Below the pieces are notes generated by a model. That model was not told the DNA's origin and ran no database searches. It saw nothing but the letters and a program-made list of their open reading frames with translations. Source: an uncultured Flavobacterium sp. (GTDB lineage: Bacteria; Bacteroidota; Bacteroidia; Flavobacteriales; Flavobacteriaceae). Taken from it: 42,119 bases of DNA. The DNA is taken from contig CAJXRR010000003.1 in NCBI GenBank assembly GCA_913060575.1, positions 1-42,119 on the forward strand, given 5' to 3'. Positions 7,888-38,383 of the stretch are shown here, piece by piece. The stretch's first letter is position 1, and the number at the start of each line of letters is the position of its first letter. The position numbers and the translations under genes were made by a program.

Positions 7888-7919
7888 CCGAAGGCTAAAT
7901 ACTGAGCCTGTCGAAGTAT
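7883..7919. repeat. Two adjacent small hairpins: TTTAGCC-GAA-GGCTAAA (contains the ychF stop codon) and ATACTGAGCCTGTCGAAGTAT (dispersed-repeat copy)
   Basis: Perfect 7-bp stem at 7883-7899; the second matches the 25176-25198 and 23341-23361 elements. Confidence 0.75.
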
Positions 7920-23340: not shown

Positions 23341-23407
23341 CACTGAGGCGCTCGAAGTGTCATTCAGAATGTAATCATGTAATGTGACTTCGAGAGCTTC
23401 AGTCACC
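23341..23407. repeat. Inverted pair of dispersed intergenic repeats (CACTGAGGCGCTCGAAGTGTC ... GTGACTTCGAGAGCTTCAGTCACC)
   Basis: The two arms are near reverse complements; the right arm matches 6690-6711 with one mismatch. Confidence 0.85.
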
Positions 23408-23847: not shown

Positions 23848-24996
23848 TTACTTCATTTTTTCAAAAAACGTCAATTCATAATTTAATAATAAACTAGGAT
23901 TTGTAATTTTTATAATGTCTCTTAAAACTAAATCGGGTCGAGTAGGAGCTAACTCATAATAAATAACACCACCTGTTGCACCTATTTTTGTAGCAGCTGT
24001 ATAGATATTACCTTGTTGAAAAGCCGTAAAGCTTTTGTAATGACTATTATTTTCTAGCATTTGCTCTTTTGTAGAAAAGTAGCCTGGAGCAATCCAGTAA
24101 TCAGCATCTTGAGCTTTGTCAAAAACACTTTCAAAGCTTAATTGCAAACTGCCTTTTCCTTTAGAATCTTTCCATAAGTAGTTTACATTTGCATCTAATA
24201 AGAATTTAGCAACAAAACTCTCTCCTCCAGGAAGATTCCATATGTCATTTCTCATAATGGCACCAGAAAGAATCGTGGGTTTGTTGTTTGATTTTTTTGC
24301 AATTGCTTTAGCTTCCAAATAATTCGACTCAATTAGTTTAAATATACTATCTGCTTCTTTCTCTTTATCATACAAAGCTCCAAAAAATTTAATCCACTCT
24401 GCTCTACCTAAAGGAGTTTCTTCTAACCAATCTCCATTGATGATGACTGGTATTCCTTGTTTTTCAATTAGATTATAGGTTTTATTCGTTTTGTTCATAG
24501 CAAATCCAACCACAAGATCTGGTTGTAATTCAAAAAGAACTTCCGTATTCATCGCAGCTTCTTTTCCTAACTCTCTTACAAACCCACTATCGATTCGTTT
24601 ACGTGTTTTTTCTGAAGATATATAATTGGTATCCTGAAAACCCACCAAGCTATTTTCTTCTCCTAATAGTTCTAACATTGGAATATGAGTCGTAGAAGTC
24701 ACTACAATTTTATCCACAGGAACTTGAATGTCGCCTTTATTTAATTCACTTTTCTTGGACAGAGATTTTGATTTTAAAATATAAATCAAGCTTTCTTTAG
24801 CTTCAGGATATGGGGTTTTTATAATTACTTTTTTATAATCATTAAAACGCTCTATATCAAATCCTTTAGCGTATTTTACTTCACTCAACTGTTTAGTTAT
24901 ATTTTCGTTAGTATTAATTGCTTTTTTCTCTCTGCAAGAACTAAAGATTATGGAAAAAATAACGATAAATAAAAAAGAGTATTTCTGATTTTTCAT
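23848..24996 (-). CDS. ABC transporter substrate-binding lipoprotein, BtuF/FecB-like, probable cobalamin uptake
   Basis: Lipobox IIFSSCREKK; VVTSTTHIPMLELLGEENSLVGF, ELGKEAAMNTEVLFELQPDLVVGF; divergent from riboswitch-controlled BtuB-like receptor. Confidence 0.87.
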   Translation of the reverse strand: MKNQKYSFLFIVIFSIIFSSCREKKAINTNENITKQLSEVKYAKGFDIERFNDYKKVIIKTPYPEAKESLIYILKSKSLSKKSELNKGDIQVPVDKIVVTSTTHIPMLELLGEENSLVGFQDTNYISSEKTRKRIDSGFVRELGKEAAMNTEVLFELQPDLVVGFAMNKTNKTYNLIEKQGIPVIINGDWLEETPLGRAEWIKFFGALYDKEKEADSIFKLIESNYLEAKAIAKKSNNKPTILSGAIMRNDIWNLPGGESFVAKFLLDANVNYLWKDSKGKGSLQLSFESVFDKAQDADYWIAPGYFSTKEQMLENNSHYKSFTAFQQGNIYTAATKIGATGGVIYYELAPTRPDLVLRDIIKITNPSLLLNYELTFFEKMK

Positions 24997-25065: not shown

Positions 25066-25073
25066 TACATTTG
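25066..25073 (+). promoter_or_regulatory. -7 promoter element (TACATTTG) upstream of the cobalamin riboswitch
   Basis: Exact TAnnTTTG match shortly before the aptamer. Confidence 0.5.
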
Positions 25074-25084
25074 CTCCGATTTTT

Positions 25085-25355
25085 GGTTCTATTATCAACA
25101 TCATTGATACTAGATTAAAAGGGAATTCGGTGAAAATCCGAGACTGTTCCCGCAACTGTAAGTATATCCTTAATTGTCACACTTAGCATGTCGAAGTGTA
25201 TATTCAGGATCTCATTTAAAATGAGTAGTTATGCTTCAAACCACTGGTTACTATCAAATAAGATTTGATACAAGCTGGGAAGGTTCATAACATAATACGA
25301 GTCAGGAGACCTGCCCTAAATCACGAGTAATAAAACTTTCGGGACAAAGGTTTGT
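25085..25355 (+). ncRNA. Cobalamin (B12) riboswitch
   Basis: AAAGGGAATTCGGTGAAAATCCGAGACTGTTCCCGCAACTGTAAG ... CCACTGG...CTGGGAAGG ... GTCAGGAGACCTGCC, then a P13-like hairpin AAACTTTCGGGACAAAGGTTT; followed by a btuB-like gene. Confidence 0.95.
25176..25198. repeat. Dispersed-repeat-like element inside the riboswitch (GTCACACTTAGCATGTCGAAGTG)
   Basis: 16/19 match to 7901-7919 by eye and related to 23341-23361; self-complementary ACACTT...AAGTGT. Confidence 0.65.
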
Positions 25356-25421: not shown

Positions 25422-27371
25422 ATGAAAAATCAATTTGTAATCATTGGTGTGTTAGCGTTGTGCTTATCTACTGCACAGCTCTTTTCACAAGAAAAAAAAT
25501 CAAAAGAAAAAAGAGAAGATTTAGAAGAGGTCGTATTGTCTGCAACTAAGTTTAATTTGAAAAAGGAAAATACAGGAAAAGTAATTTACAAAATCACACA
25601 AAAAGACATTCAAACAAATGCTGGTAAATCAGTGATACAATTGTTAAACAATGTGCCTGGAGTAGAAATTAGAGGAGTAAATTCTAATCCTGGAGAACCA
25701 AGAAATACTTACATCCGTGGTGGAAGAAGCAGACAAGTACTTATTTTAATAGACGGGGTTCCTGTTTCTGATCCTACAGGGATAGAACAATCTTACGATT
25801 TACGATTATTATCTTTGAATCAAATTGAATCCATTGAGGTTTTAAAAGGTGCATCAAGTACTTTATACGGAACTGGAGCGGGAACTGGAGTCATTAACAT
25901 TATTCTAAAGAAAGCTTCTAAAAACGATATTTCTGGGTCTTATGAGTTTAGTATGGGGACTAATACTACCTCAGAAAACAGAAACTCTGCATTAAATGAT
26001 AAAAATCAGAATGTTGCTATTAGTGGTACTTTAGAAAAATTACAATACAACGCATATTTCAATTTAACAGGTACGGATGGATTTTCATCTGCAAAAAGCA
26101 ATACAGATATCCCGTTTGAAGAGGATAGTTATGTAAGTAAAAACGGTTTTTTAAAATTAGGATATAAAGTAAATAAACAATTCCGATTAGATGCTTTTAT
26201 AAACTATGATGAGTTTGATTATTCTTTTGATGCAGGTGCTTTTAATGATTCTGATATCAATCAAGGGAGTCAAGAACAAATTAGAATCGGAATTAGACCG
26301 CAATTAAAATATAAAAAAGGAGAGTTGTTTTTAAACGCATCGATCAATTCTTTAGACAGAAGTTTTGATAGTTTTAATTCTTTCTCTGGAGGGATTAACA
26401 CCTTTATCTACAAAGGTTCAAGTGTCAATTTAGATTTGGCTAACAAATACGAATTCACAAAGTATTTTCAATTAATAACTGGACTTAATTATCAAAAACA
26501 TGAAAACGAAACCATCTCTGATTTTGGAAACATTGATCCAGATTTAGCAAATTTCAACGTTTTTGATCCGTATGTGTCAGCAGTCTATAGTACTGATTTT
26601 GGATTGAGTTTAAATGCTGGAGGGCGATTAAATATGCATAGTAATTATGGTAATAATTTCGTGTATGATACAAGTCTTGCCTTCGGAATCTTAAAAAATG
26701 AAAATGTAAACCTAAAGTTAATTTCCTCTTATAGTTCTGCCTTTATTGCACCAAGTTTATATCAACTATTTTCTGATTTTGGAAACGTTGATTTAAATCC
26801 AGAAACCAATACAACATTCGAATTTGGTTTTGAAAGTTGGATTGGGGATAAATTACAAGTGAATACTGTATACTTTAATAGAGTAGAAGTAGATAAAGTA
26901 ATCTTTCAGAACTTATCAACCCCTCCTTTTGGAGTTTATACTAATGCATTAGAAGACATCAATGTTTCGGGTATCGAGGCAGATATTACTTACTCATTTA
27001 CAAAAAATGTAAAAACAAATATAGGATATACACACATCGATAAAAGTGATGATGTAGATTATATCCCTAAAAGCAAATTAACTGCAAGTATTGAAGCAAA
27101 TCTTACGAAAAACTCAGCAATTTCTGCACTTTTTAGAAATGTTGGAGAAAGATCTTTGTTTGATGCTTTTGGAAGCTTTGGAACTGCAGGTCAGGATGTT
27201 ATTTTACCAAGTTACAGTGTTCTCGATATCAATGCAAACTATAAAGTTTTAGACGGAAAAGTGTTATTCTTCGGATCTGTCACTAATTTATTTAATGAGG
27301 ATTATCAAGAAACTATAGGTTTTAATACCAGAGGTAGAAATTATAAATTGGGAATAAGAGTTCGTTTTTAA
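25422..27371 (+). CDS. btuB: TonB-dependent outer membrane receptor, BtuB-like
   Basis: Plug domain EEVVLSATKFNLKKENTGKVIYKITQKDI...YIRGGRSRQVLILIDGVPVSDPTG..SIEVLKGASSTLYGTGAGTGVINI; C-terminal beta-barrel ending YKLGIRVRF; downstream of cobalamin riboswitch. Confidence 0.9.
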   Translation: MKNQFVIIGVLALCLSTAQLFSQEKKSKEKREDLEEVVLSATKFNLKKENTGKVIYKITQKDIQTNAGKSVIQLLNNVPGVEIRGVNSNPGEPRNTYIRGGRSRQVLILIDGVPVSDPTGIEQSYDLRLLSLNQIESIEVLKGASSTLYGTGAGTGVINIILKKASKNDISGSYEFSMGTNTTSENRNSALNDKNQNVAISGTLEKLQYNAYFNLTGTDGFSSAKSNTDIPFEEDSYVSKNGFLKLGYKVNKQFRLDAFINYDEFDYSFDAGAFNDSDINQGSQEQIRIGIRPQLKYKKGELFLNASINSLDRSFDSFNSFSGGINTFIYKGSSVNLDLANKYEFTKYFQLITGLNYQKHENETISDFGNIDPDLANFNVFDPYVSAVYSTDFGLSLNAGGRLNMHSNYGNNFVYDTSLAFGILKNENVNLKLISSYSSAFIAPSLYQLFSDFGNVDLNPETNTTFEFGFESWIGDKLQVNTVYFNRVEVDKVIFQNLSTPPFGVYTNALEDINVSGIEADITYSFTKNVKTNIGYTHIDKSDDVDYIPKSKLTASIEANLTKNSAISALFRNVGERSLFDAFGSFGTAGQDVILPSYSVLDINANYKVLDGKVLFFGSVTNLFNEDYQETIGFNTRGRNYKLGIRVRF

Positions 27372-30338: not shown

Positions 30339-30870
30339 GCTATAAATTAAAATCTTATATAAAAAAATAAGGGTAAGGGAGTTTGTTATAGGGATTTAGG
30401 GATCTCTTTAACTTTCTCCTTTTTTTTCACTATATACTGCACTTCAAATATATTTAACAATGTAAAGCCACTCAATAGGTATTTTCCTTAATTAAGATTA
30501 AAAGAGAGAAATAATTGAAGTTTTAAAAATATTAATGAGTTTATGTACTTACCCAAAACAATTCTTTCTAATATTGAAGTATGCCTTTAGTTTAGATAGT
30601 ACAGCTCTCCCTTTTAGCTTACTGTTGAGTAATTTTAATCTGATAATCAGGTGGTTAGGTGTTATCAAGCCCTTTTTAGAGTATTACAAACAGGTAGTTT
30701 TACGGGTTTTGAATCAATCAAAACTCACCAAGTATTATTTAAATAGAAGAGGCTGTCTGTAAAGTGTCACTCTGAGATCTGAGATTTTTTTTAAGCTGTT
30801 GTAATGATGTTTATACTATACGGTTTGTCATTTCTGCATAGTTAGGAATATCAAAAAGATTCAAAACAGA

Positions 30871-37929: not shown

Positions 37930-37940
37930 ACAGCTTAAAA

Positions 37941-38235
37941 GCAGATCTATCTTATCGCCACGCTTTTAGCGTGGAGGAAAGTCCGGACACTAAAGAGTAG
38001 CATAGCGGATAACATCCGTCCGATGTAAATCGAGGACAAGTGCAACAGAAAGCAAGTACAGTTCGGCTGTAGTGAAACCAGGTAAACTCTATGCGGTGCA
38101 ATGTCATGTACATTAGAGCTTGAGGGTAACTCGCCCGATTCTAAGGGGTAGGCAGATCGATTCTAAGAGTAATTTTAGAACTAGATAAATGATAAGACTC
38201 CTTTTAGGAGAACAGAATCCGGCTTATTGATCTGC
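37941..38235 (+). ncRNA. rnpB: RNase P RNA (bacterial class A)
   Basis: GAGGAAAGTCCGGACAC, GTGCAACAGAAAGCAAG, GAAACCAGGTAAACTC, GAGGGTAACTCGCCCGATTCTAAGGGGTAG, CTAGATAAATGATAAGACTCC...ACAGAATCCGGCTTA; P1 GCAGATC/GATCTGC. Confidence 0.96.
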
Positions 38236-38383
38236 TTTTTTTATTTTTTTTATTAAATCTTCAAAGAAAACAAATAAAACCATCTTTTTATTGAATTATA
38301 TCCAAGGAAAAACCAAATAGCTTTTTTTTATTCATTAATTAAACCTATCTATTGTTTATTTTTTAAATATCGTTCAAAAACCT

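Follow-up and report, generated by a model that had tools for sequence, protein, structure and literature searches.

The window, that is, the whole stretch of 42,119 nucleotides analysed here, derives from a marine flavobacterium. It carries a cobalamin riboswitch aptamer in front of a gene for a btuB-like TonB-dependent receptor, with a divergent gene for a periplasmic binding protein on the other side. The aptamer scored 81.6 bits against a gathering cut-off of 31.5 bits in cmscan, with model positions 1-189 covered, and 25067-25332 is the sole RF00174 match within the assembly. The receptor gene starts 90 nt downstream of the riboswitch, which places the switch upstream of a B12-uptake gene; the top NCBIfam match of the receptor is TIGR01779, at 200.7 bits, under the model cut-off of 599.7. 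The features are as follows.

7900..7918, + strand: repeat-class copy, intergenic (pattern match).
23341..23359, + strand: repeat-class copy, intergenic (pattern match), followed by the hairpin GTGACTTCGAGAGCTTCAGTCAC at about 23384-23406.
23848..24996, - strand: divergent periplasmic binding protein, BtuF-like by context (PF01497, 92.8 bits).
25067..25332, + strand: cobalamin riboswitch aptamer, RF00174 (cmscan, 81.6 bits, E 1e-18, full model 1-189).
25151..25162, + strand: core block CGCAACTGTAAG, unchanged (same in L023, the leader of the closest relative, and in almost every leader taken from relatives).
25162..25165, + strand: 5′ strand of P7, GTAT, with its partner ATAC at 25295-25298 (RNAfold).
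25166..25170, + strand: 5′ strand of arm A, ATCCT, ancestral (RNAfold; pair tally over 42 leaders).
25175..25199, + strand: palindromic repeat TGTCACACTTAGCATGTCGAAGTGT, the probable insert, forming the hairpin ACACTT/AAGTGT within the arm A loop (family in its own genome; absent from the closest orthologous leader; same class in this loop in genomes G306 and G272).
25206..25210, + strand: 3′ strand of arm A, AGGAT, ancestral (RNAfold; TCCTGA/TCAGGA in L023).
25211..25225, + strand: arm B hairpin CTCATT-TAA-AATGAG, ancestral, outside the insert (CTCATTAACTATGAG in the uninserted leader).
25228..25291, + strand: arm C, GTTATG/CATAAC, with CCACTGG (25241-25247) and CTGGGAAGG (RNAfold; kept in relatives).
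25300..25315, + strand: B12 box AGTCAGGAGACCTGCC (cmscan alignment; kept in relatives).
25333..25353, + strand: downstream hairpin AAACTTT-CGGGAC-AAAGGTTT, a P13/L13-like part of the expression platform (identical in L023).
25422..27371, + strand: btuB-like TonB-dependent receptor, the presumptive regulated gene (TIGR01779 TonB-B12; Pfam plug and barrel domains).

The fold described in the sequence-only reading, with AUCCU/AGGAU around ACACUU/AAGUGU and then a CUCAUU/AAUGAG hairpin, was reproduced independently by RNAfold, together with P7 (GUAU/AUAC) and an arm C that contains CCACTGG/GGGAAGG. The gap from CGCAACTGTAAG to CCACTGG is 78 nt in this leader. In the Rfam alignment the GCA of the repeat is placed under the conserved CCA; this placement was rejected, the true CCACTGG lying at 25241-25247, where it is paired in arm C by RNAfold. 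By likeness to known class-I switches, the hairpin at 25333..25353 may serve an L5-L13 role. Elsewhere in the window, the class A RNase P RNA (37938-38242, 201 bits) showed no unusual insert.

The best receptor match in the genome collection is that of Flavobacterium sp. SCGC AAA160-P02, with 77% identity. Its gene is preceded by the same leader (L023), the aligned columns of which are 84% identical to the window leader. Arm A of L023 reads TCCTGA-GTGAAAT-TCAGGA, with no repeat in the loop, and the uninserted segment of G503, a genome of the same genus which may be the same organism, is identical to it; both leaders thus present an empty orthologous site. What the window leader has in excess of the closest one is confined to about 25175-25199, and at 84% identity the flanks are too diverged for exact junctions or a target-site duplication to be read. 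Earlier, an expanded segment had been described at 25161-25240. The repeat within it is indeed extra, but the ATCCT/AGGAT stem and the CTCATT/AATGAG hairpin are ancestral; the hairpin is present as CTCAT/ATGAG in the uninserted leader and therefore predates the insertion. The core blocks, which had been described as intact, match those of the uninserted relative, and the two leaders have the same B12 box and P13-like hairpin. A pattern count over 158 genomes of the genus gave 46 long-form leaders, of which 35 are without an expansion at the position of the repeat and 11 are expanded. The segment is thus far from common to all orthologous riboswitches, and since the large majority of long-form leaders are uninserted, the direction of change is better read as an insertion in the window lineage than as a deletion in the relative.

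The repeat motif itself, CACTTAGCATGTCGAAGTG, lies at 25180-25198. With up to three mismatches, CACTGAGCNNGTCGAAGTG matched the window at exactly three sites, 7900, 23341 and 25180, where shuffles predict 0.03, in agreement with the earlier remark that the segment resembles repeats elsewhere in the window. The intergenic location of the repeats was checked from the open reading frames for the window copies. At 23341-23406 the repeat and the second hairpin, GTGACTTCGAGAGCTTCAGTCAC, form a paired, BIME-like arrangement. A further stretch, TGTCACTCTGAG at 30765-30776, is like the 5′ half of the repeat without its 3′ half and is possibly a decayed copy or a chance likeness. All copy numbers were derived from pattern searches. 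The draft genome to which the window belongs amounts to 2.21 Mb in 180 contigs and is about 77% complete; in it, the repeat in its 19-nt form gave 21 sites at up to two mismatches against 2 for the reversed-pattern control, and the 20-nt form 7 against 0. A genome-wide family, the TCGAAG class, is thus present, with a total of about 28 related sites in the draft. Elsewhere in the Flavobacteriaceae the 20-nt form has 45 copies in G306, 25 in G256 and 14 in G272, with control matches at 0, and it was absent from G503, G021, G034, G038 and G183 in the pattern search. In several genomes TGTCA or ATCA stands in front of many of the copies, and the window copy has TTGTCA; this common leader indicates a unit of about TGTCACMCTGAGC-N2/3-GTCGAAGKGT. 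The 25-nt unit is an imperfect palindrome with an ACACTT/AAGTGT stem (RNAfold), within the 20-40 bp or so of REP-like elements, and the 21 and 7 sites in its own genome and the 45 in G306 (controls 2, 0 and 0) give it the many dispersed copies expected of such elements. The window copy diverges from the class by a T for G at position 5 and may be an old or degenerate member.

To place arm A among its relatives, the segment was folded for 46 leaders, and the outer five pairs of the arm were tallied by hand for 42 of them. Standard pairs made up 208 of the 210, and most positions have several pair types, as in UGCUGA/UCAGCA, UACCGA/UCGGUA, UUUCGA/UCGAAA and UCCUGA/UCAGGA; the stems were taken by hand from the folds, so the tally leans towards pairing, while the two-sided changes are visible directly in the sequences. 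Throughout the 46 folded arms, arm A stays the outer stem and the insert is a nested hairpin inside it. Short-form leaders of the same genus are without arms A and B. As judged from these paired changes, arm A is an old, covarying helix of the flavobacterial long-form aptamer, adjoining P7. In G029 and G556, arm A (TGCTGAATTTATTTCAGCA or nearly so) is close to a dispersed repeat, ATGCTGAATTTATTTCAGCATC, copies of which are found in G026, G029 and G556; this likeness raises the possibility that a repeat gave rise to the arm.

Expanded segments, searched for at a length of 66-96 nt and with the own genome counted in both sets, were found in 11 of 158 genus genomes and in 8 of 301 family genomes. 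In two other genera the TCGAAG class occupies exactly the arm A loop (G306, TGCTGAATATCACCCTGAGCGCAGTCGAAGGGTTGTTTCAGTA; G272, TGCCAATGTCACCCTGAGCCCAGTCGAAGGGGAGTGTTGGTG). The same loop holds TTCCGATNNCTATCGGRA, a CCGAT..ATCGG palindrome, in G183 and G256, and this sequence is dispersed in both genomes (11 strand-hits and 69, respectively; control 0). In G021 the loop contains GTCATTTCGAG..CGAGAAATCT, and in 280 kb sampled from this genome the first 11 bases of the insert matched 12 times and the reversed pattern 3 times. Arm A of G034 and G037 carries TGCTGAGTTTATTTCAGCATC or a close variant, with none in the leader of the related G038. As a high-copy repeat in these two genomes GTGCTGARTTTATTTCAGCATC is weak (1 and 3 matches), and they are listed only as possible cases; the same sequence has 11, 5 and 5 matches in G026, G029 and G556. 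The arm A insert of G046 was rejected as a repeat, since 120 kb sampled from that genome gave no sign of one; ordinary hairpin growth may thus account for part of the loop expansion.

On a tree of the receptor proteins the three TCGAAG insertions need three gains, a number which the well-supported branches force, and the receptor group of G272 is deeply separated from the group of the own genome (G000) and G306. The Poisson chance of three such insertions is 6e-4, a rough guide under assumptions (12% intergenic DNA, 10-nt target) that are generous. The riboswitch of G272 with TCGAAG in arm A (L169) also has a GAGATCCCAAAACAAGTTTGGGACGACT hairpin in the P2/P3 region, possibly a second inserted repeat. 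In L167, L168, L170, L171 and L172 the upstream arms of the aptamer (P3-P5 region by position) are larger than in relatives, and other peripheral loops may accordingly also take inserts.

These results make it very probable that a dispersed repeat was inserted into an ancestral arm A, and that this arm is a recurrent, insertion-tolerant landing site at which the aptamer core is preserved. A palindrome of about 25 nt, of the flavobacterial (Y)CACMCTGAGC-N2/3-GTCGAAGKG class, would have entered the apical loop of arm A in the btuB B12 riboswitch once the window lineage and Flavobacterium sp. SCGC AAA160-P02 had diverged. Arm A has a closing stem of its own and overlaps none of the conserved blocks, so the insertion would only lengthen the arm into a nested hairpin; P7, CCACTGG/GGGAAGG, the P13-like hairpin and the B12 box would stay intact. 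With the core spared in this way, B12-dependent control of btuB most likely continues, and the tolerance would be owed to a dispensable loop of arm A. The repeat presumably arrived by the copying of a REP-like element, a mobility process, and not by slippage. Different dispersed hairpin repeats have entered this loop of arm A in several lineages. The earlier proposal that a mobile hairpin had been accommodated in a variable arm gains support from the dispersed family, the uninserted closest leader and the intact core; the repeat is a candidate mobile element.

Why this loop was hit is the concern of a further explanation, compatible with insertion into a tolerant arm A, in which hairpin loops are generally the preferred target, with copies entering single-stranded loops and the riboswitch arm being one such target among others. 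Nesting was assessed for 88 family copies outside riboswitches, 45 of which were left after removing similar flanks, and permutations of left and right flanks served as the null. Flanking stems of at least 6 bp surround 11 of the 45 TCGAAG-family copies, against 3.4 expected (permutation P 0.002), and stems of at least 8 bp surround 4 of the same copies, against 0.55. For the CCGAT..ATCGG family in G256, 5 copies are nested where 1.7 are expected (P 0.01). Three of the G256 copies (L210, L274 and L288) occupy the loops of stems that resemble terminators and have T runs, which suggests that intrinsic terminators are also landing sites; a terminator-like example from this genome reads AAAAAGCCCAATTAGA-TTCCGATAACTATCGGAA-CAATTGGGCTTTTT. 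However, nesting fits insertion into exposed loops or equally selection removing insertions elsewhere, which would give the same pattern, and nesting is also inflated where composite repeats spread as one unit, although the copies were deduplicated. Such composites are seen in the own genome, where TCGAAG copies lie inside larger repeated hairpins (L005, L013 and L015, and L009, L011, L014 and L020), the larger hairpins being TTGATAA..TTATCAA and GTGACT..AAGTCAC or close variants. A general preference for hairpin loops is thus a serious possibility to which we give somewhat less than an even chance.

More tentatively, and as a proposal that we incline to doubt, several unrelated short-palindrome families in Flavobacteriaceae may spread preferentially into the apical loops of hairpins (riboswitch arms, terminators, other repeats), and arm A may itself derive from such a repeat (about ATGCTGAATTTATTTCAGCATC in some species). 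If this is true, part of the periphery of the long-form B12 aptamer consists of domesticated mobile hairpins.

Other accounts of the extra hairpin fare less well than insertion of a dispersed repeat into a tolerant arm. The inserted hairpin could have taken on a function within the switch, for instance in arm A stability, as a protein site or in mRNA stability. The G019/G023/G501 clade keeps a nested hairpin in which ACTGAA/TTCAGT has become ACTAAA/TTTAGT, with both sides changed; in the window lineage, however, there is a single insertion and no relative that shares it. Recruitment is unlikely. Ordinary growth of a variable arm by slippage or drift, with a coincidental likeness to the dispersed repeat, is very unlikely. 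It is true that the length of arm A varies widely and that some expanded arms are without sign of a repeat (a count shows this for G046, appearance alone for G050 and G590). However, the 19-nt match of the window copy extends to the TGTCA leader, which is also present at several other copies, among them those in G272, G306 and G171. Chance would give 0.01-0.03 matches in the window, three CACTGAGCNNGTCGAAGTG matches occurred in 0 of 100 shuffles, and the same class occupies this loop in two other genera rich in the repeat; slippage is already strongly disfavoured. Least probable of all is a repeat ancestral in arm A of the flavobacterial riboswitch and lost in most lineages, for although the class is found at one position in all three genera, no fewer than three changes are forced by the tree, the G272 copy belongs to a receptor group deeply separated from that of G000 and G306, most leaders are uninserted, and G183, a near relative of G306, has a different palindrome in the loop.

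With insertion into arm A, nature offers a single riboswitch both with and without mobile hairpins at one site, a series that illustrates how peripheral RNA arms may grow. As hairpin loops look favoured, the site choice of REP-like palindromes, an old question, becomes testable. The leaders are also ready-made insertion variants for probing the tolerance of the AdoCbl aptamer.

REP elements and the TnpA-REP/RAYT transposases are well described (PMC2817692, PMC8266576, PMC6006769); among them is a transposase subclass whose flanking structures are atypical and which occurs chiefly in Bacteroidetes. Like the REP/RAYT systems, the family described here consists of imperfect palindromes of 20-25 nt, dispersed in tens of copies and sometimes paired. 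Unlike them, it shows no link to a Y1 transposase that could be found and no GTAG/CGTC tag, and the window copy lies inside a structured regulatory RNA. The sole Y1_Tnp (RAYT-like) gene found in the 77%-complete assembly (L125:1394-1954, in G000 C162) has GCGGATTTGTAATCCG-type hairpins on either side, which apparently are the REP of this gene and are distinct from the TCGAAG family, no palindrome of which flanks this gene. On direct reading, neither end of the unit TGTCACACTTAGCATGTCGAAGTGT has the GTAG or CGTC tag named in PMC3733652.

The riboswitch resembles class-I cobalamin riboswitches (RF00174) in its core blocks, P7, CCACTGG/GGGAAGG, B12 box, P13-like hairpin and the btuB-like gene downstream. 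It differs from the typical form by the extra small arms A and B of the flavobacterial long form and by the dispersed repeat in the arm A loop.

In a limited search of open-licence papers, the nearest case of a repeat in a riboswitch leader was the pneumococcal BOX element, and no report was found of dispersed palindromes repeatedly entering one riboswitch aptamer arm; a search by the repeat sequence string returned unrelated papers only. The BOX element, described in the available text of PMC3049150 as lying between two T-box riboswitches upstream of trp in a leader reported to be still functional, is likewise a dispersed repeat in a riboswitch leader. It sits between two riboswitches, whereas the repeat here is in the peripheral-arm loop of one aptamer, and that text reports no recurrence of the BOX insertion across lineages. 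Insertion sequences that target REP palindromes, such as ISPpu9 (PMC1525189, PMC8450116), are a further parallel, with mobile DNA landing in hairpin-forming repeats; those of the ISPpu9 type are full insertion sequences, whereas the inserted piece here is itself a short palindrome. The REP-like repeat and the B12 riboswitch are both of known kinds, and the added interest lies in the recurrence at one loop and the nesting in other hairpins.
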